A stretch of 64,000 bases of DNA from a virus. This document shows positions 19,993 to 39,131 of the stretch, piece after piece (the first letter of the stretch is position 1; every line of letters begins with the position of its first letter). Location of the stretch: the IMG/VR virus record IMGVR_UViG_3300030108_005444, positions 1 to 64,000 of that record. One strand, given 5' to 3'. Under the pieces are notes generated by a model that saw only the letters and a program-made list of their open reading frames with translations, was not told where the DNA came from and ran no database searches. The translations under genes and the position numbers were made by a program.

Positions 19993-19998
19993 GCGTTG

Positions 19999-20006: not shown

Positions 20007-20038
20007 TGGACCAAAAACACACTGCTATAATTTTCGTA

Positions 20039-20046
20039 TATAAATA
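20039..20046 (+). promoter_or_regulatory. T4-type late promoter (perfect TATAAATA)
   Basis: An exact TATAAATA, the -10 element recognised by the T4 late sigma gp55 with gp33/gp45, ends 6 nt before the ATG at 20053. No -35 box is expected for this promoter class, and no Shine-Dalgarno sequence is present. Confidence 0.8.
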
Positions 20047-20052
20047 CACAGC

Positions 20053-23407: not shown

Positions 23408-24978
23408 TGGCTTATACAATAAACAAAACTGACGGAACGATATTAGCAACCATAGCTGATGGTACAGTAGACACAACAACCAATTTGTCCCTATTCGGAA
23501 AAAACTATGCTGGATACGGTGAATTACTCAATGAAAACCAAGTTAAACTTTTAGAAAATTTTGCTAACACAACAGCCAATGCTCCTGATAAACCTGTTAT
23601 TGGCCAACTTTTTTATGACACAACATTAAATCAAATACAAGTGTATGATGGCACAGTATTCAAAGCATCATCTGGATCAATTATATCGGCTACTGAGCCA
23701 ACATTTGGAGCTGAAGGTGATTTATGGTATGATTCGACCAATGAACAAATTTATGTATACACAGGTTCAGCATGGACATTGGTTGGTCCGGCAGCAACCG
23801 CAGGAGCAGGTACTACAGGATCAATAGTAACAACCATTACTGATTCAACAGGAGTTTCAAGGCCCGTTGTTCAATTGACCACAGGCGATGCTATTGTGGC
23901 AATTATTTCTTCAGTAGAATTTACACCACAGTCAACAATTTCTGGTTATGCTACAATTAAAAAAGGTGTAACACTAGGAACACAAATTTCAAGCAACAAA
24001 TTCCAAGGTACAGCGACCGATTCAGATGCATTAGGCGGAATATCGTCTGCTAATTTTTTAAGATCAAACGAAAATGATACAGCTACAGGAACAATCAGTA
24101 TCCAAAATGATTCATCACTGATTCTTGGGTCAGATGCTGATATTACCATGACACAATCTGGTTCTAATTTTACTTTAAGGAATGTTACAAGCGATGGAAA
24201 TATACTTTTCAATGTAAGCGATGATGGAGTTAACACCACAGCATTGACAGTCACTGGATCAGATGCTTCTGTCACTGTGGCAAACAATTTAACTGTGTCT
24301 GGAAACTTAACGGTATCAGGCACAACAATGACTGTCAACACAACAAACACAAACATTGAAGATCCTCTAATTGTTTTAAACAAAAATTCATCATCTATTG
24401 GTGACAGAGATGTAGGTATTGTGTTTGATAGAGGTATTAACACAAACACAGCATTCTTCTATGATGAATCAGCTGATGAATTTGTCTGTGCTAACACAAC
24501 AGAAGATGGTACAACCGCAGGTAACGTAACTATTGCCACTTATGCTAACCTTAGAGTAGCAACACTTACTGGTACAGCAACAGCGGCACAATACTCTGAC
24601 TTGGCAGAAAGATATCATGCTGACATGCCACTGGAGTCAGGTGATGTTGTTAAATTAGGCGGTGAAAAGGAAATAACAAAAACCACACAAGCAAATGATG
24701 GTCAAGTATTTGGCGTTGTGTCTTCTCAACCAGCTTATATGATGAACGCTTCAGCAGGTGATGATTCAACACATCCATATGTGGCTTTATCAGGAAGAGT
24801 GCCTTGTAAGGTTAAAGGGCCAGTGTCCAAAGGAGATAGGCTAGTCTCATCAGACGAGGCTGGTGTAGCCATGGCAGCTAGTGACTCAGTTGACGTGTTT
24901 GCTGTGATTGGTCGATGTTTAGAAGAAAACAGTTCAGCTGATATTAAATATATTGAAATAGTAGTAGGAAAAAATTAG
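23407..24978 (+). CDS. Tail fibre / receptor-binding protein with exchangeable tip domain
   Basis: 523 residues. Residues 1-120 ('MAYTINKTDGT', 'DTTTNLSLFGKNYAGYGE', 'ENQVKLLENFA') match the N-terminus of the gene at 20714. A repeat region follows ('NDSSLILGSDADITMTQSGSNFTLRN', 'NNLTVSGNLTVSGTTM'). From about residue 391 the C-terminal domain 'AAQYSDLAERYHADMPLESGDVV...VFGVVSSQPAYMMN...GRVPCKVKGPVSKGD...VIGRCL' is shared with the - strand fibre at 18694-19992. The domain boundary coincides with a near-identical inverted repeat in the two genes. The start codon overlaps the previous stop. The adhesin role is inferred from fibre architecture and from the shared tip domain. Confidence 0.8.
   Translation: MAYTINKTDGTILATIADGTVDTTTNLSLFGKNYAGYGELLNENQVKLLENFANTTANAPDKPVIGQLFYDTTLNQIQVYDGTVFKASSGSIISATEPTFGAEGDLWYDSTNEQIYVYTGSAWTLVGPAATAGAGTTGSIVTTITDSTGVSRPVVQLTTGDAIVAIISSVEFTPQSTISGYATIKKGVTLGTQISSNKFQGTATDSDALGGISSANFLRSNENDTATGTISIQNDSSLILGSDADITMTQSGSNFTLRNVTSDGNILFNVSDDGVNTTALTVTGSDASVTVANNLTVSGNLTVSGTTMTVNTTNTNIEDPLIVLNKNSSSIGDRDVGIVFDRGINTNTAFFYDESADEFVCANTTEDGTTAGNVTIATYANLRVATLTGTATAAQYSDLAERYHADMPLESGDVVKLGGEKEITKTTQANDGQVFGVVSSQPAYMMNASAGDDSTHPYVALSGRVPCKVKGPVSKGDRLVSSDEAGVAMAASDSVDVFAVIGRCLEENSSADIKYIEIVVGKN
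24573..24615 (+). repeat. 43-bp inverted repeat, right copy (fibre C-terminal domain boundary)
   Basis: Partner of 19033-19075: 40 of 43 bases match its reverse complement. It lies at the in-frame junction between the repeat shaft and the shared tip domain of the + strand fibre. Confidence 0.8.
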
Positions 24979-24986
24979 GAGTATAA

Positions 24987-25979
24987 ATGGCATACGTTAC
25001 TGGCGATACAATACTAGACGATCATTATAATGGCTTTGCCAACGATAATTCACCTAATAACATCAATAAAATTTGGGGCACAGGCAACGGGAACTATGGA
25101 TATGGACAAAGCAATACAGTATCCACAGTATCAGCAGGTGCGACAGTGGCGGCATCACAATGGAACACTCTATTAAGTAGAATGCAACTTATTGGTGACC
25201 ACCAAGGTACCAATATGACAACAACTGATTCAGGACAACTTTCATCAGGTGATCCTATCGCGGCCATACTAGAAATAAGCACTGATATAACAAGTTTTGG
25301 AAACAATAGATTCAATGCGGCAAGTGACGCTCTTACACAGACATCAAATCCAAACTCTGTAAACAAAACATTCGCCGCAACGTGGACCACCAACACAATT
25401 CATGAAGTGTCATTTACTTTTCCTTCTTCTGATGCTATGAGATTCTTTTTCAATGCAGGTGGAAAAATTACACATGTATGGAACCTATCAGGTGGCACTA
25501 GTGATGGAAAATATGATGAATGGGTTGATTTGTTTAACACCAAGGCAGCTACATTTACATTTGGAAACAACAACGATTCTCTGTCAGGTTCGGGCTCAGC
25601 ATCAACAAATTTAAATGAAGGCTACCATGGGTCAAACTTAGATGGTACGTACACAATATATCAAAAAATGTTTGCAGACACAGCTCCATACACAACAAAC
25701 TATGTGCAGTGGGAAGCAAAAATTGCCGGCGACGCAGGTGACAACGGCGGTAAAGGTAATGTGTTAACAATTAAGGCAACTGCCAGAGACGATGCTGACG
25801 ACAGTGCTGACTTAGGTCAAGCACCACAAGATGCGTTTGACTCAGCGGTAACTGGACTTGATGAAGTTGATGGAAACTTATCTTCAAGTTGGACATTTTC
25901 AAAACCAAACACAACATATCTAAACAATGACGCTGTTGGCACAATTACAGCTGCCGAAGTGTCAGAATCACAAGCATAA
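24987..25979 (+). CDS. Structural/tail protein, last gene of the fibre block
   Basis: 330 residues, opening 'MAYVTGDTILDDHYNGFA' with 'NKIWGTGNGNYGYGQ', a start pattern seen in marine T4-like phage tail proteins. The centre has 'VSAGATVAASQWNTLLSRM' and a beta-sandwich-like half ('FTFPSSDAMRFFFNAGGKI', 'VQWEAKIAGDAGDNGGKGN'). Asp, Ser and Thr are frequent and cysteine is absent. A good ribosome-binding site (AGGAG) lies 8 nt before the ATG, unlike most other structural genes here. It ends the + strand structural module, followed by a hairpin with a T-run. The structural role is inferred from context and composition. Confidence 0.65.
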   Translation: MAYVTGDTILDDHYNGFANDNSPNNINKIWGTGNGNYGYGQSNTVSTVSAGATVAASQWNTLLSRMQLIGDHQGTNMTTTDSGQLSSGDPIAAILEISTDITSFGNNRFNAASDALTQTSNPNSVNKTFAATWTTNTIHEVSFTFPSSDAMRFFFNAGGKITHVWNLSGGTSDGKYDEWVDLFNTKAATFTFGNNNDSLSGSGSASTNLNEGYHGSNLDGTYTIYQKMFADTAPYTTNYVQWEAKIAGDAGDNGGKGNVLTIKATARDDADDSADLGQAPQDAFDSAVTGLDEVDGNLSSSWTFSKPNTTYLNNDAVGTITAAEVSESQA

Positions 25980-26014: not shown

Positions 26015-26290
26015 ATGAGTCAACGTAGGTTTGCTATTAAAAGAGATCTCAATCTTTTAAGACAAAGATGTGAGGCACAATTAATATTAGTGTATCAAGG
26101 TGGTATGTTTAGATGTAATGAACACATGGTAACATACAGTGAAACACTAAAATCAGGCGACGTTGTAATGGATATTAATTATACTCCTATCAAAATAGAC
26201 GATCCAGAAGAATTTAAGAAAAAAATACAAGAACAGCATCGGATGATAATGAACGAATATGCTCAGGAGTACAAGAAAATTGTTGAATGA
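26015..26290 (+). CDS. Conserved small protein, unknown function
   Basis: 91 residues: a basic N-terminus ('MSQRRFAIKRDLNLLRQRCEAQLIL'), a short beta segment with 'YQGGMFRCN', and a C-terminal charged helix ('DPEEFKKKIQEQHRMIMNEYAQEYKKIVE'). The two Cys residues are not in a zinc pattern. No membrane span or catalytic motif is visible. It is the first gene of the surface-chemistry operon, behind a putative promoter, and its end overlaps the following glycosyltransferase-like gene. It may be a regulatory or adaptor protein, but nothing in the sequence proves a function. Confidence 0.6.
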   Translation: MSQRRFAIKRDLNLLRQRCEAQLILVYQGGMFRCNEHMVTYSETLKSGDVVMDINYTPIKIDDPEEFKKKIQEQHRMIMNEYAQEYKKIVE

Positions 26291-27041
26291 TCAAGGCATC
26301 TTAATTTATAATTTTCCTTCACACATCAATTACACAAAGATTGCTGAATTGTGTGTAAGTCAATGTAAAAATTATTTGCCTGACGTTCCTATAATGAGTG
26401 TAGGACAACCAATACGAGGAGTTGATCTCCACCACAATTTGACTATCCCCTACACTAATAAAAAAGTGTTTGGCAACGTGAGCCGAACTTGGTATAATCT
26501 TGCCAGACATCTTTCATATAAAATTTCTCCGTGGGACAAAACAATTGTGATTGATTCTGATTATATCATAATGTCAAGACAATTAAAAAAATTATTTGAA
26601 AGTGATCAGCAGATTTTAATGCACAGAGAATGGTATGACATTACAAATGATAAACTTAATGTAGTGCCTGTTGGAAAATCTGAAATTGAAATGTTATGGG
26701 CAACTGTATTAAAATTTACCAAGACTCCCGAGGTGAAAGAATTTTTCGAACTATGGGAAAAAATAATCCTAAATTACAATTATTATGCCAAACTTTTGAA
26801 TTTTACTCCACGTGTGATCAGAAATGATTATGCTGTCAGCATAGCTTTGAAACAACTAGTAAATTTTGGATCCGTTGATCATTGTGTGATACCTTGGAGT
26901 CTACAAACCACAAGAGAAAATGTAGAAATAAAAGAAATTACAAAACAAAAAATTGTGCTATCAGACAATAAAAGTGACTTCAATTTAATTTTCGACACAC
27001 ACATTCTAAATAAGGAAAGTTTGGCAGATGCGATATTCTAA
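26259..27041 (+). CDS. Glycosyltransferase-like protein (GT-A fold, GT8-like)
   Basis: Up to 260 residues. The ATG at 26259 overlaps the previous gene by 32 nt; TTG at 26280 or 26283 (protein start 'NDQGILIYNFPSH'), behind AGGAG, is a good alternative. The core 'PWDKTIVIDSDYIIMS' has a DxD-like metal/nucleotide-sugar motif (Asp-Ser-Asp), preceded by a Rossmann-like N-terminus ('GILIYNF') and followed by 'RNDYAVSIALKQL', an arrangement like GT8-type transferases where a late 'NDD' region contacts the acceptor. It would transfer a sugar from a nucleotide donor. The next gene is a likely paralogue overlapping by 14 nt. Donor and acceptor are unknown. Confidence 0.6.
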   Translation: MLRSTRKLLNDQGILIYNFPSHINYTKIAELCVSQCKNYLPDVPIMSVGQPIRGVDLHHNLTIPYTNKKVFGNVSRTWYNLARHLSYKISPWDKTIVIDSDYIIMSRQLKKLFESDQQILMHREWYDITNDKLNVVPVGKSEIEMLWATVLKFTKTPEVKEFFELWEKIILNYNYYAKLLNFTPRVIRNDYAVSIALKQLVNFGSVDHCVIPWSLQTTRENVEIKEITKQKIVLSDNKSDFNLIFDTHILNKESLADAIF

Positions 27042-27837
27042 AAAACAAGGAATAGGATATCTTACGTATGCTCTCAACACAGATATTGATTATGAAAAAT
27101 GTGCAGTATTATGGGCATTAAGTTTAAGGGCAACACAAAAAAACAAAATTAAAATTGCTGTAATAGTTAATGATACGCAAACATGTAGAAAAGATCTTCA
27201 TTCTGTTTGTGATTATGTTATTTCAAAGCCGAAAAAAAAAGTAATTAATGAAATGCACTATGAAGCCGATCTATTAACTTTGACTCCTTTTAAAGAAACA
27301 ATTAAAATGGAGTGTGACATGTTGGTACCTTGCGATATGAATGTGTGGTTACACACTTTTAGATTACAAGATCTCACCATTACTGGACATGTTATAAATC
27401 ACAAAAATAAAAAAGTAAACGATTATCGATATAGGCAATTTATTAAAGTAAACAATCTACCAAATGTTTATAATGGTTTATATTATGTGAGACTTACTGA
27501 ACAAAATGTTAAATTTTATAGAGAATTGGATAAAGTGTTTACAACTTGGGATCAACAAATACGTAAGTTTCGCATGTGGGATAGACACGAAGCATCAACT
27601 GATTTTGCAATGAGTATTGCTTTAAATAATTTAAGCATGGAACATTGTGTAATGAATACTTTTTTACCAACTTTTGTACATAATAAAAGATATTGTGTGG
27701 GCGATTGGCAGTATTATTCTATTCCGGATCCAAGCAACATAATCATCGATGGAGTAAAAATTGATTATCCATGGCATTATCACACAAAATCGATGGCCAC
27801 GGAAAATTTAATATCTAAATACAAGCAACATGTATAG
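27028..27837 (+). CDS. Glycosyltransferase-like protein, probable paralogue of the preceding gene
   Basis: 269 residues. The N-terminus 'GIGYLTYALNTDIDYEKCAVLWALSLRAT' resembles the opening strand-helix of GT-A transferases, with 'KMECDMLVPCDM' at the place of the DxD motif and a late 'STDFAMSIALNNL' that aligns with 'RNDYAVSIALKQL' of the upstream protein, suggesting shared ancestry. The exact DxD is degenerate (E-C-D), so activity or metal dependence may differ. The start overlaps the upstream gene by 14 nt and a purine-rich AAGGAAAG precedes it. It probably acts in the same pathway as its neighbour; substrate unknown. Confidence 0.55.
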   Translation: MRYSKKQGIGYLTYALNTDIDYEKCAVLWALSLRATQKNKIKIAVIVNDTQTCRKDLHSVCDYVISKPKKKVINEMHYEADLLTLTPFKETIKMECDMLVPCDMNVWLHTFRLQDLTITGHVINHKNKKVNDYRYRQFIKVNNLPNVYNGLYYVRLTEQNVKFYRELDKVFTTWDQQIRKFRMWDRHEASTDFAMSIALNNLSMEHCVMNTFLPTFVHNKRYCVGDWQYYSIPDPSNIIIDGVKIDYPWHYHTKSMATENLISKYKQHV

Positions 27838-28141
27838 AATATATTACACACATGAAGGGGAGATTACAATTGTTGGAGCCTCTGATCAGCCAGGAGAGTA
27901 TATTGAATGCGATCTAAAAACTTTAGAAAAAATACAAGCATCACCACACCTATACAGAATAGAAAATAAAAAAATTGTTGAAAAAACAATTGAACACAAA
28001 AAAAGAAAAAAGTTTTGCCATACAGATAGTTTTCCTGGATGGATTTGTGTCAAGGACAACTTATTCAACATATTGGCTTATGCTTCCAATAAACCAAAAT
28101 GGTTTGATGAAAGAAAACATTCTTGGGTGAAGTATGATTGA
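27830..28141 (+). CDS. Small protein, unknown function
   Basis: 103 residues, basic and soluble, starting 'MYRIYYTHEGEITIVGASDQPGEYIECD', i.e. a beta-hairpin-rich N-terminal half followed by 'KLKTLEKIQASPHLYRIENKKIV'-like alternation and a C-terminal part with 'FPGWICVKDN' and 'NKPKWF'. It starts 8 nt inside the upstream transferase and its stop overlaps the next gene, so it is translated as part of the operon. I see no catalytic motif; it could be an accessory subunit of a neighbouring transferase, but this is only context. Confidence 0.55.
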   Translation: MYRIYYTHEGEITIVGASDQPGEYIECDLKTLEKIQASPHLYRIENKKIVEKTIEHKKRKKFCHTDSFPGWICVKDNLFNILAYASNKPKWFDERKHSWVKYD

Positions 28142-28994
28142 TGTAGCAGACCTTGATGTAATATTCCTTTCATATAAGGAACCAAACAAAGAATTCAATT
28201 GGCTTGACCTAAAGTCAAAGTGTCCGTGGGCCAAACGTGTCGATGGAGTCGAAGGTTCTGATGCGGCCCACAAAGCGGCTGGCGAAGCATCCAGCACAGA
28301 AAGATTTGTTCTTGTTGACGGTGACAATATTGTTGATCCTGCTCTGTTTGATCAACAAATTAATTTGAACAATCATAATGAGAACATAGCAATAAGATGG
28401 CGCGGACTTAATAATGTTAATGGTCTGAAATACGGAAATGGCGGAGTATCGTGTTGGACCAAAACATTTGTACAAAATATGCAGACACATGAAAACACTA
28501 GTGGTTCGGATGAATCGTTGGTTGAATTTTGCTATGAAGATGGTTATCTTGCCTATCCTGATTGTTATTCAACCACTGTGATAAACCACACAAAACAACA
28601 GGCATGGCAGGCAGGATTCAGAGAAGGGGTAAAAATGTCATTGGATAGAGGACAACGCAAAACTCCTGCTGACTTTGTTTCCTCAATACACAAACAAAAT
28701 CTTTTGTGTTTATTGACTTGGATGAGTGTGGGTGCTGACGTAAAGCATGGACTATGGGCCATGTATGGCGCATGTGAAGGTTGTTATAAAACAATGATAG
28801 CAGATTGGGACTACGTCAATGTGCGTGACTTTAAATATCTAGAACAATATTGGGACGAAAAACTTATCCAAGAAGAAGATCTCGCAAACAGTATTGATCA
28901 AATGATTGCGGAACTTAACTATACTTTGGGTATATCAGCGTCGAGATTAGGAGCAGAACAGTCAAAGTTTTTTAAGTTTTGTATGAAATGGTAA
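28134..28994 (+). CDS. Glycosyltransferase-like protein (marine-phage GT-A family)
   Basis: 286 residues. The first 70 residues follow a pattern recurrent in marine T4-like phages: 'LDVIFLSYKEPNKEFNW..LK', 'WAKRVDGVEGSDAAHKAAGEAS', 'RFVLVDGDNIVDP'; the 'VDGDN' is a DxD-type site and the preceding 'AHKAAGEAS' helix is typical of the donor-binding half of GT-A enzymes. The rest ('NGGVSCWTK', 'CYEDGYLAYPDCYSTTVINH') would form the acceptor side. The same core appears, degenerate, in the protein at 39131-40654. It overlaps the first radical SAM gene by 7 nt. A role in glycan assembly is inferred; donor and acceptor are unknown. Confidence 0.65.
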   Translation: MIDVADLDVIFLSYKEPNKEFNWLDLKSKCPWAKRVDGVEGSDAAHKAAGEASSTERFVLVDGDNIVDPALFDQQINLNNHNENIAIRWRGLNNVNGLKYGNGGVSCWTKTFVQNMQTHENTSGSDESLVEFCYEDGYLAYPDCYSTTVINHTKQQAWQAGFREGVKMSLDRGQRKTPADFVSSIHKQNLLCLLTWMSVGADVKHGLWAMYGACEGCYKTMIADWDYVNVRDFKYLEQYWDEKLIQEEDLANSIDQMIAELNYTLGISASRLGAEQSKFFKFCMKW

Positions 28995-30352
28995 GCAAAT
29001 ATCAAACAGATGCTAACAAGGCAAGATTAAAACTAGATAAAGTTTCAGATACTATGTGCTTGGCCAAGTGGATGCAGACATCACTGCATCTAACAACAGG
29101 CATGACCAATTCATGTTATCATCCTCCACTCCACAAAATAAATGTTGATCAAATAAAACATGATCCTTCAAAACTACACAACACAGATGAAAAGAAAAAT
29201 CAAAGGGAGCAAATGATTAATGGCAAACGTCCAGCTGGATGTAGTTACTGTTGGAAACTTGAAGACAATAAACAGATGTCTGATAGATTCTATAGAAGCG
29301 GAGAACCGTGGGCTATGGACAACTATGAAAACATATTAGCAAATCCACAAGCAGATGTCGTGCCAACATACGTTGAGGTTGACTTTTCAAATGCATGTAA
29401 TTTTAAATGTTCATACTGCTCACCACAGTTTTCCACAGCATGGGCACAAGAAGTTGAACAACATGGAGCCTATCCAACCAGTGTTCCACACAATGATCCC
29501 ACACATTTCAAAGGCAAACGCAAAGTTTTGTCTCAAAAGGACAATCCGTATGTTGAAGCATTTTGGCGTTGGTGGCCGGATTTGTATCCAAAATTAAAAC
29601 ATTTTAGAATGACAGGAGGCGAACCAATGATGGACAAAAACACATATAAAGTTTTTGAATATGTAATAGATAATCCAAAACAAGATTTACATCTTAATGT
29701 TACATCAAACTTTTGTCCTCCAGTTCCGGCACTAGGTGATAGATATTTCAACATGGTAAAAACTATGTGCGATGGAGCAATGATTGAACATTTCATGCAG
29801 TTTGTATCTTTGGATGCTTGGGGTGAAAAAGCAGAATACATACGCAACGGAATGGACTTTACAACAGTGTGGTATAATGTAAACAAATATTTGACAGACA
29901 TCAAGGGACACAATTCAATTACATTTATTATTACTATGAACAATTTAAGTGTGTCCAGTCTTAAAACACTTATGGAAAATATACTGAGACTCCGTAAAGA
30001 ATATTCAAATACCTATCAACGTGTGTGGTTTGACACTCCTATATTGCGTACTCCAACTTGGCAACACATTGGCTTGTTAGATCAATCATTTGATGTTTAT
30101 TTTGAAGAGGCAATCGACTACATGAAGACGCATCATCATAGCACAGACATGGTTGCTTTTAGAGATTTCGAAATTGCTAAACTGCAACGCTGTTATGCTA
30201 CAATGAGGCAAGGAATCGAAGATAAACATACACATATGGCTAATTTTTGGCGTTTTTTTGTGGCACATGATGTAAGAAGAAATACTAGTTTGTTAAAAAC
30301 TTTTCCCGAATATGATCATTGGTTTAAGGAGTGCCAGCAATTAACAAAATGA
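28988..30352 (+). CDS. Radical SAM protein with N-terminal twitch/SPASM-like domain (subfamily 1, A)
   Basis: 454 residues from ATG 28988 (the in-frame TTG at 28979 is less likely). The radical SAM core has Cys137-x3-Cys-x2-Cys ('CNFKCSYC') for the [4Fe-4S] cluster and 'MTGGEPMM' (SAM-binding GGE motif). Ahead of it is a cysteine-rich module, 'MCLAKWMQTSLHLTTGMTNSC' and 'GCSYCWKLED', which resembles a twitch/SPASM auxiliary-cluster domain placed before, not after, the core. Such enzymes make SAM-derived radicals to modify sugars, peptides or other small molecules. It is the first of five consecutive relatives, closest to the next gene ('HKI.V.QIKHDPS', 'KK.QR.QM..G.RP.GC.YCWK.ED'). Substrate unknown. 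Confidence 0.85.
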   Translation: MVSKYQTDANKARLKLDKVSDTMCLAKWMQTSLHLTTGMTNSCYHPPLHKINVDQIKHDPSKLHNTDEKKNQREQMINGKRPAGCSYCWKLEDNKQMSDRFYRSGEPWAMDNYENILANPQADVVPTYVEVDFSNACNFKCSYCSPQFSTAWAQEVEQHGAYPTSVPHNDPTHFKGKRKVLSQKDNPYVEAFWRWWPDLYPKLKHFRMTGGEPMMDKNTYKVFEYVIDNPKQDLHLNVTSNFCPPVPALGDRYFNMVKTMCDGAMIEHFMQFVSLDAWGEKAEYIRNGMDFTTVWYNVNKYLTDIKGHNSITFIITMNNLSVSSLKTLMENILRLRKEYSNTYQRVWFDTPILRTPTWQHIGLLDQSFDVYFEEAIDYMKTHHHSTDMVAFRDFEIAKLQRCYATMRQGIEDKHTHMANFWRFFVAHDVRRNTSLLKTFPEYDHWFKECQQLTK

Positions 30353-31692
30353 ACGATTTAGAATTCAAACAAAAATATTTAGACAGCAAATCTCCTTCTT
30401 TTTGTGCGGCCAAATGGTACAATGCTACAATATGGTTAGGAAGTGGCATGACAACAAGTTGTCATCATCCCTTGCCACATAAAATTGACATTGAAGAAAT
30501 AAAACATAATCCAAGTGCTATTCATAATACAAAAGAAAAAAAAGCACAAAGGAGACAGATGCAGTGTGGTGAAAGGCCATCAGGGTGCGAATACTGTTGG
30601 AAAATTGAAGATATCGGCAGGGATTCGATCAGCGATAGAGTATACAAGTCAAAAATTTACACAGATAACGATCTCGACTTAGCTTATCAATCAGATCATC
30701 AAAGAGATTTTAACTTACGCACATTAGAAATTGCTTTTGATAGGACTTGTAATTTTGCTTGTTCATACTGTAATCCAGCATTCAGCACTACATGGGCAAG
30801 GGATATTAACCAAGGTGGCCCATACACAGACATGACCACAGATGGTAGAAATCATTTTACACATTCTCATGCTTCTGCTGAACCATACAAAAAGGATGAG
30901 ACTAATCCTTATGTGGAAGCATTTTATAAATGGTGGGAGTCTGATCTACACAAAAGTTTAGATGAACTGAGAATTACAGGTGGCGAGCCTATGATGAGTC
31001 CAAATTTATGGAGATTACTCGATTGGATTGAAACACAAGGTCATAAGATGAATCCTAAGATGCGAATTGCCATTAACAGTAACCTTGGCGCAAAACAATC
31101 AATAATTGACCGTTTCAAACAAAAATTGAAGAATTTCAAAAACTTTCACTTGTATACCAGTAACGAATCCATAGGTACTAATGCTGAATATATTAGGGAT
31201 GGTTTGAATTATACACAGTGGCACGAAAATATGTTGTCTATGATGAAAGAGAATATTCCCTCTGAAATACACAACATGGCAACAATTAATGCTTTGTGTT
31301 TAGAAACATTACCACAGTTTTTAGAAAGTTTAGTTGAATTGAAAACCGCTTGTAAATTATATGGACCCAGTTTAAACTTTACTTTAAATATTTTGAGATT
31401 TCCAAGTTTTCAATCTCCGTTGGTATTACCCAACGAACTAAGAAATACATTTAAGGATAATTTAGAAAAGTTTTTAGCCAAAAACAAAAAATACTTGGAA
31501 CATATGGAAGTGAATCATACTCAACGATTGATTGATTATTTAGATGTCGTGAAAACTCCACATGCAGGAGCGGCCACACAGGAAAAACTCCAGAAAGATT
31601 TTAAAGTTTTTTATAGCCAATATGATAAAAGAAGAGGAAAAGACTTCAAAAAAACTTTTCCTATTATAGGGGAGTGGTATGGCCAACTATGA
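30349..31692 (+). CDS. Radical SAM protein with N-terminal twitch/SPASM-like domain (subfamily 1, B)
   Basis: 447 residues from the ATG at 30349, which overlaps the previous stop as ATGA (a GTG at 30331 is less likely). Core cluster motif 'CNFACSYC' at about residue 134 and 'ITGGEPMM'. The N-terminal cysteine module is 'FCAAKWYNATIWLGSGMTTSC' plus 'GCEYCWKIED', closely parallel to the upstream protein; both keep 'HHP/YHP..HKI', so they form one subfamily, probably from tandem duplication. The C-terminal third is helical and lacks a canonical SPASM Cys set. Tight coupling to its relatives suggests that the five proteins act successively or in a complex on one substrate. Confidence 0.85.
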   Translation: MNDLEFKQKYLDSKSPSFCAAKWYNATIWLGSGMTTSCHHPLPHKIDIEEIKHNPSAIHNTKEKKAQRRQMQCGERPSGCEYCWKIEDIGRDSISDRVYKSKIYTDNDLDLAYQSDHQRDFNLRTLEIAFDRTCNFACSYCNPAFSTTWARDINQGGPYTDMTTDGRNHFTHSHASAEPYKKDETNPYVEAFYKWWESDLHKSLDELRITGGEPMMSPNLWRLLDWIETQGHKMNPKMRIAINSNLGAKQSIIDRFKQKLKNFKNFHLYTSNESIGTNAEYIRDGLNYTQWHENMLSMMKENIPSEIHNMATINALCLETLPQFLESLVELKTACKLYGPSLNFTLNILRFPSFQSPLVLPNELRNTFKDNLEKFLAKNKKYLEHMEVNHTQRLIDYLDVVKTPHAGAATQEKLQKDFKVFYSQYDKRRGKDFKKTFPIIGEWYGQL

Positions 31693-32959
31693 AGATAAGT
31701 TACCTAACAAGTATAAGTTAAAGGATCTAACCACCCTAGAAAAAACTTATTTGACTGCCAGCAAATATTTTTGTATGCTACCATGGACGCATCTTCATTC
31801 TTATCCAAATGGAGACGCTTATCCTTGCTGTTTAGCATCACACAAACACCCAATAGGAACTATGCGTGAACAAACTATTGAACAATTGTGGAATAATGAT
31901 GAAATGAGACAGTTAAGACAAAATATGTTACAAGAAAAATCTAGTAAACAGTGTGTCAAATGTTATGAACAAGAAAATAATGGATGGACATCAATGCGTA
32001 AATCTGCTAACAAACATTTTGGTCATCATATCAAAGAAGTCCATGACACTAAACCAAATGGTCATTACGATAAAGTTAATATGATTTATTGGGACATAAG
32101 ATTTTCAAACTTGTGTAATCTTTCGTGCAGATACTGTGGAACTTATTTTTCATCAAACTGGTATGATGATCAAGTTGCACTGTTTGGCAAACCTAATCAT
32201 CCAAAGGTAACCTATGCCGGTAGATCAAAAACTGATGCCTATGATCAATTAATAAACTATTTGCCAATGGTAGAGCAAGTATATTTTGCTGGCGGCGAGC
32301 CACTAATTATGGAAGAACATTATAAAATATTGAAAGCATTAATTGATATTGGGAAAGCAGACCAAGTTAGGCTGATATACAATACAAATTTCACAAAACT
32401 GTCTTATAAGAAATTAAATGTGCTAGATCTTTGGCCCGAGTTCAAGGATGTGTCAGTTGGAGCTTCTCTTGATGCCATGGGTCCTAGAGCAGAACTTGTT
32501 AGAAATGGGACTGTTTGGAAGGACGTCGAAAATAATCGCGAACAAATGTTGAAGAAATGTCCTAAAGTAGACTTTTATATAAGTGCAACATTATCTGCTT
32601 TCAACCATAGACATGTCATTGATTTTCATAACGAATGGGTAGACAAAGGCTTTATTAAGTGGCAAGACTGGAATATGAATGTTGTTCAAGACCCAGAACA
32701 TTATAGAGCTGATATTCTCCCACTCTCTGTTAAGGAAAAAGTGACTGTGGAATATCAACAACACATTGAAAAAATTGAACCTTTTGATCATTTAGGAAGA
32801 GCAACTAATGGTTTTAGAAGTGCGATAAAATTTATAAACTCCACAGATAATACAAAGTTATTGCCAAAATTTCGCAAATACGTAGAACTGTTGGATAAAA
32901 GAAGACAACAAAACACATTACAGGTCTTTCCTGAACTAAAAGAGGTGATCAATGAATAA
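31679..32959 (+). CDS. Radical SAM protein with N-terminal twitch/SPASM-like domain (subfamily 2, C)
   Basis: 426 residues, with a strong ribosome site (AGGGGAG) before an ATG overlapping the previous gene by 14 nt. The N-terminal module is clear: 'YFCMLPWTHLHSYPNGDAYPCC', 'IGTM...IEQLWN.DEMRQLRQNML', 'CVKCYEQE', which is the C-x-x-P-W...P-G...C-C...W...R...C-x2-C layout of SPASM/twitch domains. The radical SAM core follows with 'CNLSCRYC' at about residue 146 and 'FAGGEPLI'. Domain order is reversed relative to anaerobic sulfatase-maturase-type SPASM enzymes. Function is unknown; it is closest to the next two genes. Confidence 0.85.
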   Translation: MANYEDKLPNKYKLKDLTTLEKTYLTASKYFCMLPWTHLHSYPNGDAYPCCLASHKHPIGTMREQTIEQLWNNDEMRQLRQNMLQEKSSKQCVKCYEQENNGWTSMRKSANKHFGHHIKEVHDTKPNGHYDKVNMIYWDIRFSNLCNLSCRYCGTYFSSNWYDDQVALFGKPNHPKVTYAGRSKTDAYDQLINYLPMVEQVYFAGGEPLIMEEHYKILKALIDIGKADQVRLIYNTNFTKLSYKKLNVLDLWPEFKDVSVGASLDAMGPRAELVRNGTVWKDVENNREQMLKKCPKVDFYISATLSAFNHRHVIDFHNEWVDKGFIKWQDWNMNVVQDPEHYRADILPLSVKEKVTVEYQQHIEKIEPFDHLGRATNGFRSAIKFINSTDNTKLLPKFRKYVELLDKRRQQNTLQVFPELKEVINE

Positions 32960-34097
32960 AATATGCACTCTTCCATGGATGCATCTTGAAACAACTCCTT
33001 TAGGGGAATTTAGGCCATGCTGTCTTGCTGAGGAAACTATTCCTGACTATAATATTTCTAGAGGTGACACAATTAATAATGCTTTTAATTCTGCCTACAT
33101 GGAAAATTTACGACAACAATTTTTAGACGGTAAACAACCAAAAACATGTTCAAAGTGTTGGTCTCTTGAATCAGCTGGGGGCACATCTAAAAGGATGATA
33201 TCAAACAAAAAGTTTGGCGTAGACACATCACAAAAACGCCTTAAGTTTTTAGATCTAAAACTTGGAAACATATGTAATCTTAAGTGTAGGATATGTGGCG
33301 CCTGGTCTTCTTCAAAATGGGCTCAAGAAGAAATTGAACTTGGCAACCCAACAGCACGTGACTGGCTTGCTCAAGGTCGATGGCCAAGGCAAAAAAACAA
33401 AGTATGGAACGAAATTATATCGCTTCTACCATATGTAGAATATTTTGAATTCACAGGAGGAGAACCATTTTTAATTAAAGAACATTTTGATATACTTGAA
33501 AAAAGTGTTGAATTAGGAACAAGTAAAAAACAACAAATACACTACAATACAAATGGAACAACATTTCCTACTCATGCTGTTGAAAATATATGGCCACACT
33601 TCAAAGAAGTAGAAATAGCATTTAGCGTTGATGATATAGGAGAAAGGTTTGAGTATCAAAGATTTCCTGCTGTTTGGCAAAAGGTAAATGAAAACATTAG
33701 AAAATTTAATGCGTTAAAAAAAACACATAAAAATATTAAGACACAAGTTTGTTGTACAATAAACATGCAGAATATTTTTAATCTTGAAGCAGTGGCAAAC
33801 TGGATTCAATCCCAATCATTTGACTACGTGTTCTACAATTATCTACATGAAGCAAAAGAATGGAACGTGCAGTATTTGCCAAAAAATTATAAGCAATTCA
33901 TACAAACAAAACTATTGAATAACAAGTCTCCAGGAATTCACAAGGAAGAGTTAGGAAAAGCATTAGTGTTTATGATGGATAAAGATTTAGGTGACGATCA
34001 AATACATTGGCAAAGATCTCAAAAAATCAAAGCAAGTGATAATTTTAGAAATCAATCATTTGTAAAGGTACATCCAGAATATCAAGGGTTACTATGA
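32952..34097 (+). CDS. Radical SAM protein with N-terminal twitch/SPASM-like domain (subfamily 2, D)
   Basis: 381 residues, the shortest of the five, starting right at the cysteine module ('MNKICTLPWMHLETTPLGEFRPCC', 'CSKCWSLE'). Core motif 'CNLKCRICG' at about residue 108 and 'FTGGEPFLI'; 'SVDDIGERFEYQR' later matches the 'S.D..G...E..R' strand conserved in the array. GAGGTGA precedes the ATG, which lies 8 nt inside the upstream gene. The compact form shows which parts are essential: auxiliary-cluster module, partial TIM barrel and a helical C-terminal cap. Substrate unknown. Confidence 0.85.
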   Translation: MNKICTLPWMHLETTPLGEFRPCCLAEETIPDYNISRGDTINNAFNSAYMENLRQQFLDGKQPKTCSKCWSLESAGGTSKRMISNKKFGVDTSQKRLKFLDLKLGNICNLKCRICGAWSSSKWAQEEIELGNPTARDWLAQGRWPRQKNKVWNEIISLLPYVEYFEFTGGEPFLIKEHFDILEKSVELGTSKKQQIHYNTNGTTFPTHAVENIWPHFKEVEIAFSVDDIGERFEYQRFPAVWQKVNENIRKFNALKKTHKNIKTQVCCTINMQNIFNLEAVANWIQSQSFDYVFYNYLHEAKEWNVQYLPKNYKQFIQTKLLNNKSPGIHKEELGKALVFMMDKDLGDDQIHWQRSQKIKASDNFRNQSFVKVHPEYQGLL

Positions 34098-35419
34098 CAT
34101 ATTTTAAACCAAGTGAAGGCAACAAAACGTTTTGTATGGCGCCTTGGACCCATACATATTTGTCGCCACAATCAGAGCGAAGATTGTGTTGTGCATCGAC
34201 TGAACCAGCACAAAATTTTAAACAGTACATTGATACTAATGGTGGCACTAACACATACAATCCTATGTCTCTGGACGAATGGTGGAACTCTGATCATTTG
34301 AAGTCTGTCAGGAAGAGAATGCTTAAAGGAGAGGAACTTCCTGAATGTCAAGTGTGTAACAAAAAATTATTGCACACCACTGTGTATAGGGATCATTTTA
34401 ATATGCTTTTTAAAGATATAATAGATCAAGCATATCAAAACACAAAAGAAGATGGGTCAACTGACATGAAATGTGTAAGCTTTGATTATAGGTTTTCTAA
34501 TCTATGTAATTTCATGTGTAGAATGTGTGGCTCTAATTTAAGTTCAAGTTGGGAAGCAGAAGAAAAAAAATACATTGAAGGATTTGAGAATGAAAGATTA
34601 TGGGCCACTAAGGAAAACAAGAAAAAAATGGACGAATTTGTTATCAACATTGCGGAACCAGAGTTTGAAGAAGCTATTACTGATAGAAGAATTAGAGAAA
34701 TATATTGGGTAGGCGGTGAACCATTAATGTATCCACAACATTGGAAATATATGAAAATGTTAACAGATAATAATTTAGGCAATCAGGTCTATGCTAGATA
34801 CAACACCAATCTAAGTAGAATTGTTTTTAATAAAATTAACTTGTTCGATGATATATTAAAAAATTTTAGTGCTTGGGAAGTATGTGCTTCAATTGACGGA
34901 ACAAACCAAATTGGCGAATATGTAAGAACTGGACTAGATTATAATAAGTTTATTGAAAACTTTGAACATGGATTAAAGTTTGCTAATGGAAGAAACAAAA
35001 GGTTAAATTTGGATTTTACCATTACTACCCCTGGTTTGTTTGAAATAGAAAAAATGTTTGAACTAAGTTTAAAGTATGATGTTAATATTATTACTAAAAC
35101 TACATTTGCTTTTACTTCTAATGTTTTTATGAGTCCTTTAGTATTGCCAAGGAAAATACTAACAAGAATTATAAATGATGTGCTTAATAAAATAAAACCT
35201 AGAGCAACAATGAAGCAAAAGGGAATGATAGATATACTTGAAGGATATAGTCAAAGGCAAACATTTGAAGAAGACTATGATGATTGGTTTACAGGCAGAA
35301 GTAAAGGAAAAGCATTTTTACTCGAAATGGAAGCTAGGAGGAAAAATCCAATTACAATGGAAGAAGTTATGAAAAAAGATGAGGAAATGTATGATTGGTG
35401 GAGATCAATTGAAGTATAA
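34094..35419 (+). CDS. Radical SAM protein with N-terminal twitch/SPASM-like domain (subfamily 2, E)
   Basis: 441 residues. N-terminal module 'FCMAPWTHTYLSPQSERRLCC' and 'CQVCNKK'; the usual Gly after Pro is replaced by 'QSE'. Core 'CNFMCRMCG' at about residue 138, 'WVGGEPLMYP', then 'CASIDGTNQIGEYVRTG'. The start codon overlaps the previous stop (ATGA), and the last 11 nt overlap the next gene. It ends the row of five radical SAM genes. The long charged insertion between the cluster and GGEP motifs ('ENERLWATKENKKKMDEF') is unique to this member, suggesting a different partner or acceptor. Confidence 0.85.
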   Translation: MTYFKPSEGNKTFCMAPWTHTYLSPQSERRLCCASTEPAQNFKQYIDTNGGTNTYNPMSLDEWWNSDHLKSVRKRMLKGEELPECQVCNKKLLHTTVYRDHFNMLFKDIIDQAYQNTKEDGSTDMKCVSFDYRFSNLCNFMCRMCGSNLSSSWEAEEKKYIEGFENERLWATKENKKKMDEFVINIAEPEFEEAITDRRIREIYWVGGEPLMYPQHWKYMKMLTDNNLGNQVYARYNTNLSRIVFNKINLFDDILKNFSAWEVCASIDGTNQIGEYVRTGLDYNKFIENFEHGLKFANGRNKRLNLDFTITTPGLFEIEKMFELSLKYDVNIITKTTFAFTSNVFMSPLVLPRKILTRIINDVLNKIKPRATMKQKGMIDILEGYSQRQTFEEDYDDWFTGRSKGKAFLLEMEARRKNPITMEEVMKKDEEMYDWWRSIEV

Positions 35420-36092
35420 AAAACTAGTTTCTGCTGGATGTTCATTTATACAAGGCAGTGAATTAGGAGACGAAGTTCCATATTCGAAAAACACATATCC
35501 AGCACTATTAGCCAAACATTATAATTTAGATTATGATTGTATTGCTTATCCTTCTGCTTCAAACCAAGGGATTGCCAAAAAAATATTTGATTACAAAAAT
35601 ATTCAAGAATGTTTGTTTGTTGTGCAGTGGACTTTTCCAAGTAGATTAGGAGTTGATTTATCATACAATTATTTTGATAAAAATAAAAATAAAACAAACT
35701 GGTTTGACCTTGCCCCTAATAATTGGGATCTAATTGATCATTTTCATGAATATAGAGAATACACACAACAACTCAAAGATTTGGGCATAGATAAATTATC
35801 AAACACAATATACAAGCATATTGGGAATGACAGCCATTTTTTGTTTCAATCAAAAATCTGTATGGATGCTGTTAGATTACACCTAAGCAATGGTGATGCA
35901 CAATTTTTGTTTATAGCTGGATGTAATTCTTTGTTGGATTATCCACAAATTATTTCCTTTGAAAACAAAGGATTTGTTGAATGGTGCCATGCTAAAAAAT
36001 TCAAAGTGGGACAATACAAACATCCTCTGCATGATGCTCATCGATTTGCTTTCGAGTATATTTCGAAAAACGTAAATATTCAAAATGATTAG
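35409..36092 (+). CDS. SGNH/GDSL-like hydrolase or acyltransferase-type protein
   Basis: 227 residues from TTG 35409, chosen because GGAG stands 6 nt ahead and the protein then begins '(M)KYKKLVSAGCSFIQGSELGDE', the usual start of such phage proteins; ATGs at 35379 and 35391 are alternatives. Block I is 'SAGCSF..G.ELGD' (nucleophile Ser in 'CSF'), block III may be 'AYPSASNQG' (Asn/Gly), and block V 'HDAHRFAFEYI' supplies Asp and His of the triad. SGNH proteins remove or add acyl groups on sugars. Its place between radical SAM proteins and a methyltransferase suggests trimming or acylation of the same product. Confidence 0.6.
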   Translation: MKYKKLVSAGCSFIQGSELGDEVPYSKNTYPALLAKHYNLDYDCIAYPSASNQGIAKKIFDYKNIQECLFVVQWTFPSRLGVDLSYNYFDKNKNKTNWFDLAPNNWDLIDHFHEYREYTQQLKDLGIDKLSNTIYKHIGNDSHFLFQSKICMDAVRLHLSNGDAQFLFIAGCNSLLDYPQIISFENKGFVEWCHAKKFKVGQYKHPLHDAHRFAFEYISKNVNIQND

Positions 36093-36674
36093 ATGGATAA
36101 AAAAGTTATTTTACAAAGTTCGATTAGAGATCCAATATCGGAAAAAAATCAGAGAATTAAAAAAGAAAGATCCTTTCATATACCACTAGAAGTTGATCAT
36201 TACGGCATGATCAAAGGAAATATTGCGGGATGGATGCACATCGATGAAGCTCAAGTGTTATGTGAATCTGTTGTTGGTAGGACACACTGCTTAGAACTTG
36301 GCACACACAAAGGATTAAGCACATCATTAATAGCATTGGCTAATCCACATGCTAAAATTATAACTACAGAAATATTTTTAGATCTTACTAATCAAGCAAA
36401 ACAAAATTGTAAAAATTTAAATAATATTAACTTTATTACAACTGATAGTAATGATTGGTTAGCAGATTGTAAAACAAAATTTGATTGGGTGTTTGTTGAT
36501 CATTGTCATGACAAAGATTATATGGATGTTACCATGGAGTTATTGCCATCACGCCTGCAGGATAATCATAAGGTTTTATTACATGATACACACTTAGATG
36601 GTGTTCGATCACAACTGAAAAAATTTAAGGACTATACAGTACATAGAAATCTTGGCATAGGAAAATTTTGGTAG
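36093..36674 (+). CDS. Class I SAM-dependent methyltransferase (Methyltransf_24-like)
   Basis: 193 residues with the Rossmann SAM-binding signature 'CLELGTHKGLSTSLIALA' (motif I), the acidic end of strand 2 ('IITTEIF'), 'FITTDSNDWL' (motif II/III) and 'FDWVFVDHCHDKDYMDVTMELL' (motif IV), the layout of Methyltransf_24 / O-methyltransferases linked to sugar and antibiotic pathways. The start directly abuts the previous stop (TAG-ATG) and has no clear ribosome site, so translation is probably coupled. It may methylate a hydroxyl of the glycan or metabolite made by the operon. Acceptor unknown. Confidence 0.75.
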   Translation: MDKKVILQSSIRDPISEKNQRIKKERSFHIPLEVDHYGMIKGNIAGWMHIDEAQVLCESVVGRTHCLELGTHKGLSTSLIALANPHAKIITTEIFLDLTNQAKQNCKNLNNINFITTDSNDWLADCKTKFDWVFVDHCHDKDYMDVTMELLPSRLQDNHKVLLHDTHLDGVRSQLKKFKDYTVHRNLGIGKFW

Positions 36675-36685
36675 TATAATTTAGT

Positions 36686-37678
36686 ATGAAGAAAAAACTT
36701 TCTATTTGGGAACCAATAGCACAAGGAGTGCCATCTGAAGACTTCATAAAAATTCTATCAAAACATTTTACACATTGTTTAGAGAATAATATTGATATTG
36801 TTTTAGACTTTTTTCCAGAAGGTCCTAATTTATATGAAAACAATATTTGGGGATTGATACAAAATGTCTGTAATTCATTTGATGTTGACACATCCAATAT
36901 CCAGATTGAAATTTGTGATTTCAATGCTGACTATCCTTGTAAGGTTATAAAAAGACAGCCTTACTGGTTCAATGCTCTATATAAGTTTCCAGATCTATTT
37001 GATCATACAATAAATCCTAAAATTGAAAAATTATTTGGACATTTTGTAGGGAGGCCAAGTTGGGATAGATTAGTTCTACATTCTACAATAAAACAAACTA
37101 ACAATAGTCTGTTCACTTTTTGGCAAGGTAAAGATAAGCCTGCTTCATACCAAAAAACTTTACAAAATATACAAAAATTATACCCAAATGATTATGAAAA
37201 ATATAAAAAAATTTTAGACGCGACGCCACATTCGAACATAAAAATGAAGCCAGTTTATAAAGACTTCACAACTTTTCCGCGAAACGTATATCCTCTAAAA
37301 CCTTATTATCAAAAAATATTTGTTGATATTGTAAGTGAAACATTTATCTATGATCGCACATGCTTTATCACGGAAAAAACAGCAAGACCTATTGTGTTTA
37401 GAACTCCATTTATTATAATGGGTGGCCTTGGTTTCTTGAAAATATTGAAGGAATTAGGTTTCAAAACTTTTGACAAATGGTGGCCTGAGGAGTATGACAA
37501 CTACAGTGGCCAAGAAAGAGTAAAACAAATTCAGCAAGTAATTAAATTAATACAAGCCAAGGACAATATCGAACAAATAAAAAATGAAATGTTACCTGTA
37601 GTAGAACACAATTATAAACATCTAATGTCACGCAGTTGGAATCAATTCGCAAAAAAATTAGGACTTAATCATGTCTAA
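36686..37678 (+). CDS. GT-B-like glycosyltransferase family protein, copy 1
   Basis: 330 residues. The C-terminal third has 'ETFIYDRTCFITEKTARPIVFRTPFIIMGG', then 'LKELGFKTFDKWWPEEYD' and 'RVKQIQQVI'. The 'TEK....I......P..' stretch resembles the donor-binding segment of GT-B enzymes such as GT10 fucosyltransferases ('..TEK...A...G..P'). Two related genes occur on the other strand (48144-49196 and 53127-54209), sharing '(T/S)E......RPF(I/V)' and 'L..(L/R)GF..F'. The N-terminal half is divergent. A role in sugar transfer fits the operon; the assignment to a GT family is tentative. Confidence 0.5.
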   Translation: MKKKLSIWEPIAQGVPSEDFIKILSKHFTHCLENNIDIVLDFFPEGPNLYENNIWGLIQNVCNSFDVDTSNIQIEICDFNADYPCKVIKRQPYWFNALYKFPDLFDHTINPKIEKLFGHFVGRPSWDRLVLHSTIKQTNNSLFTFWQGKDKPASYQKTLQNIQKLYPNDYEKYKKILDATPHSNIKMKPVYKDFTTFPRNVYPLKPYYQKIFVDIVSETFIYDRTCFITEKTARPIVFRTPFIIMGGLGFLKILKELGFKTFDKWWPEEYDNYSGQERVKQIQQVIKLIQAKDNIEQIKNEMLPVVEHNYKHLMSRSWNQFAKKLGLNHV

Positions 37679-39131
37679 AATTGTTTGGGGCATATCTGCT
37701 TTGTTTCATGATGCTGGATTGTCCGTAATAAAAGACAATGAACTGGTATTTGGCGCTCATGCTGAAAGATACTCAGGCGTAAAACATGACGATAAATTAA
37801 ACCGAAACTTAATCAAGGAAGCATTAAAATATGGCCATCCTGATCATGTGGTATGGTATGAGAATCCTTGGAAGAAAAGATTAAGACAAATTTTTTCAAC
37901 AGAAGTTTTTTATGGGAAGTGGTGTCCTAATCCAAAAAAATATCTCCATAATTTCGGGATAAGATGTCCTGTATCATTTGTTGATCATCATTATTCACAT
38001 GCTTGTGCGGGTGCGTACACTTCTGAATATAGTAGGGCAATTGTTGTGGTTATAGATGCTATTGGCGAACTTGACACTTGCTCAGTATGGGAATATAGCA
38101 AAGACTTAGGCCTATTTAAAAAATGGTCTGTGAAATATCCCACATCCATGGGCCTGCTCTATTCAGCCTTCACAAAACGTTGTGGACTAAAACCAATGGA
38201 TGAAGAGTATATTACAATGGGTATGGCGGCATGGGGAAAGCCAATCTATGTTGAACAAATTAAAATGGATTTTATAGAATCTTACAATCCTTTCAAAATG
38301 AAACGTAATGTACACAAAGGCATTGCTGACTATCTGCCTGATGCTAATCCAATGGATCTTGCGGCCTCAATACAATGTATCGCAGAAGAATTTATAACCA
38401 CTTTTATTCAACAAGCGGTCAACCATCACGATAATCTACCAGTCATATATCAAGGAGGAGTGGCACTTAATTGTGTTGCCAATACCAAACTGCTGGACAT
38501 ATGTAAACATGGATTATGGATCATGCCAAATCCAGGCGATTGTGGAAGTTCTGTGGGAGCGGCATTGTCCTACACAAAAAAACCCATTATTTGGCCTGGA
38601 CCCTATATTGGCACTGATATTCGTAAACCATACCCTGTAGACGCTTGTATCACTGAATTAAGCACCAATAAAATGGTGGGTGTAGCGTCTGGACGTGCTG
38701 AATTTGGGCCTAGAGCACTAGGACATAGATCGCTTCTAGCAGATCCAAGAGGGCATGATATCAAGGATAAAGTAAATGAAATTAAACGTAGACAAAAGTT
38801 TCGTCCATTTGCGCCTGCCATACTTGAAGAACATTTACATGATTATTTTGAAATAAACACCGACACTTCACCTTACATGCAGTATGTAGGAATTTGTAAG
38901 CATCCAGATAAATTTCCTGCCATTGTACATATAGATGGTACATCAAGAATACAAACTGTAGGAAAGTCTGATTCAACTGGTTTTAGGAAACTGTTAGAAA
39001 AGTGGTATGCTAAGACAGGTTGTCCAATGCTATTAAACACGTCCCTGAACATCAGGGGAAAGCCAATGGTTAATAATCGAGATGATGCTGATCAGTTTGA
39101 AAATGAATATGGCATTAAAGTTTTATCATAA
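37671..39131 (+). CDS. Carbamoyltransferase (NodU/CmcH family)
   Basis: 486 residues. N-terminal ASKHA-like domain: 'GISALFHDAGLSVI', 'AERYSGVKHD', 'DHHYSHACAGAY' (metal/nucleotide-binding His residues) and 'VVVIDAIGE'. C-terminal YrdC-like carbamoyltransferase part: 'GGVALNCVANTKL', 'PGDCGSSVGAAL', 'EFGPRALGHRSLLADPR', 'RQKFRPFAPAIL', 'LNTSLNIRGKPMV'. Enzymes of this family use carbamoyl phosphate and ATP to O-carbamoylate sugars or antibiotics. The protein is somewhat shorter than typical (about 550-600). NodU-like genes are known in marine T4-like phages. Here it overlaps its neighbours by 8 and 1 nt and would put a carbamoyl group on the operon's product. Confidence 0.9.
   Translation: MSKIVWGISALFHDAGLSVIKDNELVFGAHAERYSGVKHDDKLNRNLIKEALKYGHPDHVVWYENPWKKRLRQIFSTEVFYGKWCPNPKKYLHNFGIRCPVSFVDHHYSHACAGAYTSEYSRAIVVVIDAIGELDTCSVWEYSKDLGLFKKWSVKYPTSMGLLYSAFTKRCGLKPMDEEYITMGMAAWGKPIYVEQIKMDFIESYNPFKMKRNVHKGIADYLPDANPMDLAASIQCIAEEFITTFIQQAVNHHDNLPVIYQGGVALNCVANTKLLDICKHGLWIMPNPGDCGSSVGAALSYTKKPIIWPGPYIGTDIRKPYPVDACITELSTNKMVGVASGRAEFGPRALGHRSLLADPRGHDIKDKVNEIKRRQKFRPFAPAILEEHLHDYFEINTDTSPYMQYVGICKHPDKFPAIVHIDGTSRIQTVGKSDSTGFRKLLEKWYAKTGCPMLLNTSLNIRGKPMVNNRDDADQFENEYGIKVLS

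Follow-up and report, generated by a model that had tools for sequence, protein, structure and literature searches.

A conserved tail-linked gene cassette of uncultured phages with five tandem radical SAM enzymes that carry a twitch module ahead of the core

The auxiliary-cluster domains of radical S-adenosylmethionine (SAM) enzymes, twitch and SPASM, are described in the literature as C-terminal extensions (PMC9012708). A twitch domain placed before the core is the defining trait of the NCBIfam family NF033640 ('N_Twi_rSAM'), an entry that names single proteins without a function. Among the closest known systems are BtrN and SpeY, dehydrogenases of aminocyclitol and aminosugar antibiotics with one twitch auxiliary cluster; that of BtrN has four Cys ligands and takes part in oxidising a sugar-like hydroxyl by two electrons (PMC9012708). 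Several radical SAM genes have been noted in marine phages, as cassettes near tail-fibre and lipopolysaccharide (LPS) genes in the host-recognition clusters of pelagimyophages (PMC7029224) and as 12 genes in a T4-like genome (PMC5332604), both in passing mentions without a gene set, gene order, clades or a link to GT8-like glycosyltransferases. Here we analyze five tandem N_Twi_rSAM genes, termed A to E, and the cassette around them in a 64,000-nucleotide stretch of viral DNA (the window), which corresponds to bases 1-64000 of the 72,314-base record IMGVR_UViG_3300030108_005444. Neither the enzyme family nor its twitch-before-core layout is new; what is new is the five-member set and its tail-linked context. 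Neither is in the NF033640 entry, and the open-access literature searched yielded no account of the five clades as a set or of their tail-glycosyltransferase context.

Five radical SAM genes with an N-terminal twitch module

An earlier reading of the window (the original prediction) had described five consecutive genes on one strand that overlap by 4-14 nucleotides (nt), each with an N-terminal Cys module ahead of the CxxxCxxC and GGEP motifs. Open reading frame coordinates confirm the arrangement, and motifs together with NF033640 scores confirm the module. The genes, all encoding N-twitch radical SAM enzymes, are the following (pLDDT, predicted local distance difference test):

28988..30352, plus strand: A, the core member (NF033640 315 bits; clade support 0.965)
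30349..31692, plus strand: B (NF033640 311 bits; clade support 0.942)
31679..32959, plus strand: C (NF033640 405 bits; SPASM and Radical_SAM above their Pfam cutoffs; AlphaFold2 model with pLDDT 95.6; clade support 0.979)
32952..34097, plus strand: D (NF033640 331 bits; clade support 0.979)
34094..35419, plus strand: E (NF033640 293 bits; clade support 1.0; a single copy per locus in all of 41 loci)

The overlaps are 4 (A/B, ATGA), 14 (B/C), 8 (C/D) and 4 nt (D/E), and the preceding gene, G0, overlaps the start of A by 7 nt. A starts with the ATG at 28988 (the open reading frame list gives a TTG at 28979) and B probably with the ATG at 30349. All five proteins match NF033640 over nearly their full length (cutoff 170 bits, scores 293-405) and contain CxxxCxxC and GGEP, preceded by four more invariant cysteines (C32, C51, C92 and C95 in C). 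CxxxCxxC and GGE are invariant in A-E and their relatives and the model of C matches radical SAM structures in the PDB, which places these proteins in the radical SAM superfamily, whose hallmark is the two motifs within a partial TIM barrel.

To characterize the N-terminal module, a profile of A-E was compared with BtrN. Residues 21-94 aligned to chain positions 183-259, which form the C-terminal twitch of BtrN, and the start of the core aligned to the BtrN N-terminus; the four Cys ligands of BtrN align to the four conserved in A-E. The module of C also exceeds the Pfam SPASM cutoff (48 vs 21.5 bits). In the AlphaFold2 model of C, C32, a beta-hairpin (38-48), C51, a helix (74-84) and C92/C95 follow each other, and the cysteines are thus predicted to be in the twitch arrangement described in PMC6231123, in which Cys residues bracket a beta-hairpin and more Cys follow the next helix. 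This arrangement corresponds to a single auxiliary cluster site. Instead of the usual position C-terminal to the core, the module is N-terminal in A-E, a permutation common to all NF033640 proteins; Foldseek depends on chain order, and placing a permuted twitch is beyond it. SPASM proper has a seven-Cys motif and two auxiliary clusters, whereas only four auxiliary cysteines are universal here, with a neighbouring CC in C-E, which indicates that the module is a twitch and not a two-cluster SPASM. With four predicted Cys ligands and no open site, it appears to resemble BtrN more closely than MoaA. SpeY is among the structural matches of C. The likeness to BtrN and SpeY has its limits: their twitch lies behind the core and that of A-E in front of it, and the sequences are only weakly similar.

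Loss of cluster cysteines in relatives, named with the original prediction as evidence that would refute it, was looked for in 810 copies and not found: the seven cysteines, four auxiliary and three of the core, are retained in at least 99% of them. Most clades contain an additional clade-specific cysteine (C452 in 94% of A, C323 in 92% of B, C267 in 88% of D and C264 in 97% of E copies).

Two further radical SAM genes lie in the window outside the array, at 55187-56218 and 46751-47728, both on the minus strand; one has a conventional C-terminal SPASM domain and the other no recognised auxiliary domain.

An orthologous set within a conserved tail-linked cassette

IMG/VR was scanned with an alignment headed by C, which returned at least 600 stretches, among them at least 552 confirmed relatives. 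The best 80 loci plus the window (81 loci) nearly all carry arrays of 3-9 copies. In a tree of 379 N_Twi_rSAM copies with Shimodaira-Hasegawa (SH)-like supports, five clades formed around A-E (supports listed above), with approximately one copy per locus in each. All five clades were found together in 33 of the 81 loci, in the order A-B-C-D-E or A-B-C-E-D. Because heading the alignment with C could bias the choice of loci, an E-clade alignment was used as a second bait, a single-protein E bait having recovered only 7 loci. The full set was present in 69 of the resulting 85 loci, and 5 of the remainder are distant relatives from the single-protein E scan. The tree separates A and B from C, D and E (SH-like support 0.94-0.995), with the markers KW..SC in A and B versus PW..CC in C-E, bearing out the two subfamilies that had been proposed for the first two and the last three genes.

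Each of the five genes is under purifying selection (median pairwise ratios of nonsynonymous to synonymous substitution rates, dN/dS, of 0.05-0.09). Old duplications together with constraint on every copy point to a division of labour and not to a recent expansion. The duplications are ancient, older than these phages. Recent local duplication was considered and is ruled out, as the five clades are deep and each largely contributes one ortholog to a phage. Thus, of the repeated duplication and division of labour suggested originally, the five distinct, co-inherited enzymes stand, while the local expansion does not.

The array is part of a larger unit. The conserved block runs TAIL, TAIL2, sm91, two G1 genes, u7, G0, A and mostly B-E, and G2, SGNH, u8 and carbamoyltransferase genes come after or between the radical SAM genes. 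All these elements except u8 are present in the window (aa, amino acids; HMM, hidden Markov model):

23407..24978, plus strand: TAIL, tail-fibre-like structural protein, 523 aa (TAIL-cluster HMM 187 bits; same upstream position in relatives)
24987..25979, plus strand: TAIL2, tail or virion structural protein, 330 aa, candidate acceptor (bait result; virion role suggested by position and similarity to TAIL)
26015..26290, plus strand: sm91, conserved small protein, 91 aa (in 77/79 TAIL2-bait and 74/80 G0-bait loci)
26259..27041, plus strand: G1a, predicted GT8-like glycosyltransferase with a DSD motif and a C-terminal HxxxK (same family as G1b)
27028..27837, plus strand: G1b, predicted GT8-like glycosyltransferase (AlphaFold2 pLDDT 92.8; top Foldseek hits glycogenin and UGGT, E 1.6e-8)
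27830..28141, plus strand: u7, small cassette protein, 103 aa (HMM 42 bits; in most loci, missing in part)
28134..28994, plus strand: G0, probable GT2-like nucleotide-sugar enzyme with a DGDN motif (GT2-like by motif only)
35379..36092, plus strand: SGNH-hydrolase-like protein with a GCSF motif (cluster in 17/33 full loci)
36093..36674, plus strand: methyltransferase (PF13578, 42.8 bits, above cutoff)
36686..37678, plus strand: G2, putative glycosyltransferase-like protein (cluster in 24/33 full loci; by motif only)
37671..39131, plus strand: carbamoyltransferase of the NodU/TobZ type (PF16861 178 bits, PF02543 111 bits; 26/33 full loci)
39131..40654, plus strand: second, longer G0-family protein (cluster G0)
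40649-41731, minus strand: DegT/StrS aminotransferase (PF01041, 308 bits)
41712-42647, minus strand: NAD epimerase (PF01370, 110 bits)

Linkage was also assessed with baits that are not radical SAM genes. Among 80 G0-bait loci, some of them ended by contig ends, N_Twi_rSAM genes were present in 78, 28 of which have clade A alone. With TAIL2 as bait, every one of the 59 assessable loci (>6 kb of downstream sequence) contained G1 and G0 together with one or more radical SAM genes. B-E were nearly all-or-none among 16 non-redundant long-downstream loci from these baits (9 with none, 5 with all; Fisher p=1e-4 for the co-occurrence of D and E). Since A occurs alone and B-E mostly together, A is the core member and B-E an extension module. 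The TAIL2 proteins of these loci are approximately 30-40% identical to each other, and G0, compared among 11 phages, has a mean column identity of 63%. That the array might be a random collection of genes is ruled out by the gene order conserved with three different baits; the neighbourhood, whose lack of conservation had been named as a refutation, is strongly conserved. The five-gene array at 28988-35419 is therefore real, but the unit extends upstream to G0, u7, the two GT8-like genes and the tail genes, and downstream beyond 35419 to the SGNH and carbamoyltransferase genes, and A is separable from B-E within it.

Scans against Pfam and PHROG found next to no matches for the accessory families; one of the sampled accessory proteins matched Lipase_GDSL_2, in line with the SGNH-hydrolase-like assignment. 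The model of G1b has the GT-A fold of glycogenin and UGGT (GT8 and GT24; Foldseek probability 1.00), and G1 shares with them an invariant acidic residue in a DxD-like motif and the C-terminal His of HxxxK. G1 is thus predicted to be a GT-A, GT8-like glycosyltransferase, although identity of G1b to these proteins is 12-15% and G1 has no Pfam or PHROG match. The aminotransferase/epimerase pair, which is also found near other cassettes, probably supplies sugar nucleotides. Transmembrane-like stretches occur in <6% of the members of any cassette family, suggesting soluble cytoplasmic proteins, which fits the modification of a tail protein better than a stand-alone O-antigen system.

The cassette is widespread in environmental viral sequences, with hundreds of uncultured aquatic phages carrying it: three cassette genes served as separate baits for IMG/VR scans, and each gave at least approximately 600 stretches. 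Among 50,697 phage records, TAIL2, G0, G1b, u7, sm91 and u8 had no match, and the matches of A and C were limited to distant radical SAM genes of one single-cell marine virus and a few Vibrio phages. When bacterial assemblies were scanned with the clade C alignment, the nearest relatives were phage fragments binned in metagenome-assembled genomes (MAGs), which carry the same tail-cassette block (L090-L092, L094).

Two other arrangements were observed. A second cassette type (L044, L045, L047, L071, L073 and others) has other N_Twi_rSAM copies after C or A and includes u10, a further radical SAM-like protein; it never occurs with the full A-E set. A contig of a Bacteriovoracaceae MAG (L096) has eight N_Twi_rSAM copies without the phage cassette genes.

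Proposed role of the cassette and its alternatives

We propose, with about an even chance of being right, that the cassette of these uncultured large-tailed phages assembles a tail-linked glycan and tailors it by radical chemistry, with a tail protein as the probable acceptor. The glycan is suggested by the predicted glycogenin-like fold and by gene content. A precedent for phage-encoded sugar on capsid and tail proteins is mycobacteriophage virion glycosylation (Freeman et al. 2023, cited in PMC12619734), which concerns different phages and is described there with no mention of radical SAM enzymes. In the proposed mechanism, the cassette and the tail genes would probably be transcribed jointly, late in infection, and the two GT8-like enzymes and G0 would make a core glycan in the cytoplasm with A. 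B-E would then alter this glycan stepwise, and all radical enzymes may work on a single common scaffold. The core cluster would cleave SAM, and the resulting 5'-deoxyadenosyl radical would abstract a hydrogen from a sugar carbon. Thereafter, either the fully Cys-ligated N-terminal twitch cluster could accept an electron, in a BtrN-like dehydrogenation, or a clade-specific cysteine could give a hydrogen back from the other face, in an epimerisation. The carbamoyltransferase, the methyltransferase, the SGNH-type esterase and further transferases would decorate the product, and its most likely acceptor would be TAIL or TAIL2.

Several points weigh against a tail glycan. The tail linkage could partly be vertically inherited synteny in one viral lineage, despite the low identity among the TAIL2 proteins, and G0 and G2 are assigned as putative glycosyltransferases by motif. 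Twitch/SPASM enzymes often act on peptides, the Foldseek matches of C include the peptide-acting anSME and CteB, and sequence networks fail to predict function in the twitch/SPASM subfamily (PMC6231123). True cellular homologues in the bacterial assemblies are mostly single-copy genes with mixed neighbours (other radical SAM, SDR and PhyH genes), and no sugar attachment site was found.

The cassette could instead modify a host surface glycan (the LPS O-chain) while the cell is infected, perhaps to exclude superinfecting phages or to keep new virions from adsorbing to lysate debris, its place beside the tail genes being that of a host-recognition island. Its gene types are typical of O-antigen loci, and the pelagimyophage host-recognition cluster combines radical SAM cassettes with LPS genes (PMC7029224). 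However, a membrane transferase, flippase and polymerase are absent from the cassette, there are almost no transmembrane stretches, and the order TAIL-TAIL2-sm91-G1-G1-G0-A is rigid at approximately 30-40% TAIL2 identity, unlike in a hypervariable island; we regard this explanation as unlikely. We also doubt that the radical SAM enzymes act directly on a protein or peptide, in a maturation step or in a pathway like those of ribosomally synthesised and post-translationally modified peptides (RiPPs), with TAIL2, sm91 or u7 as substrate. Peptide modifiers are the majority of SPASM/twitch enzymes, C matches two of them in structure, and the cassette holds two conserved small proteins, sm91 and u7; yet the Pfam scan found no RiPP recognition element (RRE) or PqqD-type domain in A-E, a leader-core layout is not obvious in sm91 and u7 (which are still candidate substrates), u7 is missing from part of the loci, and the constant partners are glycosyltransferase-like.

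Two further explanations are far less probable. Hypermodification of DNA, in which the enzymes would alter a modified base and the glycosyltransferases add sugar to it, draws on the fact that phage glycosyltransferases can glycosylate DNA and that the same phage has QueE-like and GTP cyclohydrolase I genes; these lie in a separate region on the opposite strand (52-61 kb), whereas the cassette is joined to tail and not to replication genes, which makes this proposal highly improbable. Least credible of all is the view of the genes as auxiliary metabolic genes of some small-molecule pathway, for instance that of haem (ahbD), which is how SPASM radical SAM genes are annotated in viral surveys. 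One haem gene, ahbD, is among 14 globally conserved viral auxiliary metabolic genes (PMC7288430), and the twitch of C weakly matches the AhbD model TIGR04545. Nevertheless, C scores 22.4 bits against a cutoff of 500, the best stretch being the twitch domain, haem genes are absent nearby, and five divergent paralogues behind tail genes are ill-suited to one haem step.

Other genes of the window and significance of the cassette

That the array is encoded by a phage, as originally proposed, is borne out by the baseplate wedge and tail genes of the window. The baseplate wedge protein shares 35-36% identity over approximately 95% of its length with its counterparts in jumbo phages, among them Phosso and Atu_ph07, and the 72-kb record may thus represent one piece of a large phage genome. 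A tRNA search found none. Other features observed are:

5914-18693, plus strand: single open reading frame of 4259 aa, lying after the baseplate wedge gene and before the tail genes
18694-19992, minus strand, opposite to the tail genes: protein matching Mtd_N (PF18454, 50.9 bits), the N-terminal domain of the major tropism determinant
43856-45034 and 45034-46113, minus strand: DUF2201 VWA-like metallopeptidase protein beside a MoxR-like ATPase (AAA_3), a pairing typical of chaperone-like systems
52181-53080, minus strand: QueE-like radical SAM protein
54210-55187, minus strand: arginine-deiminase/amidinotransferase-superfamily-like protein (weak PF02274; phrog_25854)
57160-58206, minus strand: IMP dehydrogenase/GMP reductase-like protein
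60221-60907, minus strand: GTP cyclohydrolase I

The QueE-like, IMP dehydrogenase-like and GTP cyclohydrolase I proteins are a possible 7-deazaguanine DNA-modification or nucleotide module. The amidinotransferase-like cluster, of which L016 has another copy (19531-20550, minus strand), occurs near 10 of the 33 full cassettes, in most cases on the other strand, and possibly takes part in guanidino sugar chemistry.

In the Baltic, 261 instances of ahbD have been reported, with functional inferences termed speculative there (PMC9301287). From the scores of C, we infer that many viral 'ahbD' calls may be members of this cassette; if so, it may explain why ahbD is listed time and again among the globally conserved auxiliary genes of viruses. 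In a broader and more tentative picture, to which we give somewhat less than an even chance, uncultured phages of a wide clade would inherit a pathway of five enzymes, with A as core and B-E as extension, by which they build on their own tail fibres a glycan tailored by radical SAM chemistry; the cassette would account for much of the viral 'ahbD' signal, and this would be an undescribed kind of virion modification.

Altogether, NF033640, a family known by name alone, gains a genomic context, a five-way division of labour and a testable role. At least approximately 600 stretches per bait, yet no match of the core cassette genes tested among the 50,697 phage records, point to a common feature of aquatic phages that has so far been invisible to cultured-phage biology. 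If the tail glycan is true, it would be an unusually elaborate post-translational pathway for a phage, with a direct bearing on host recognition.

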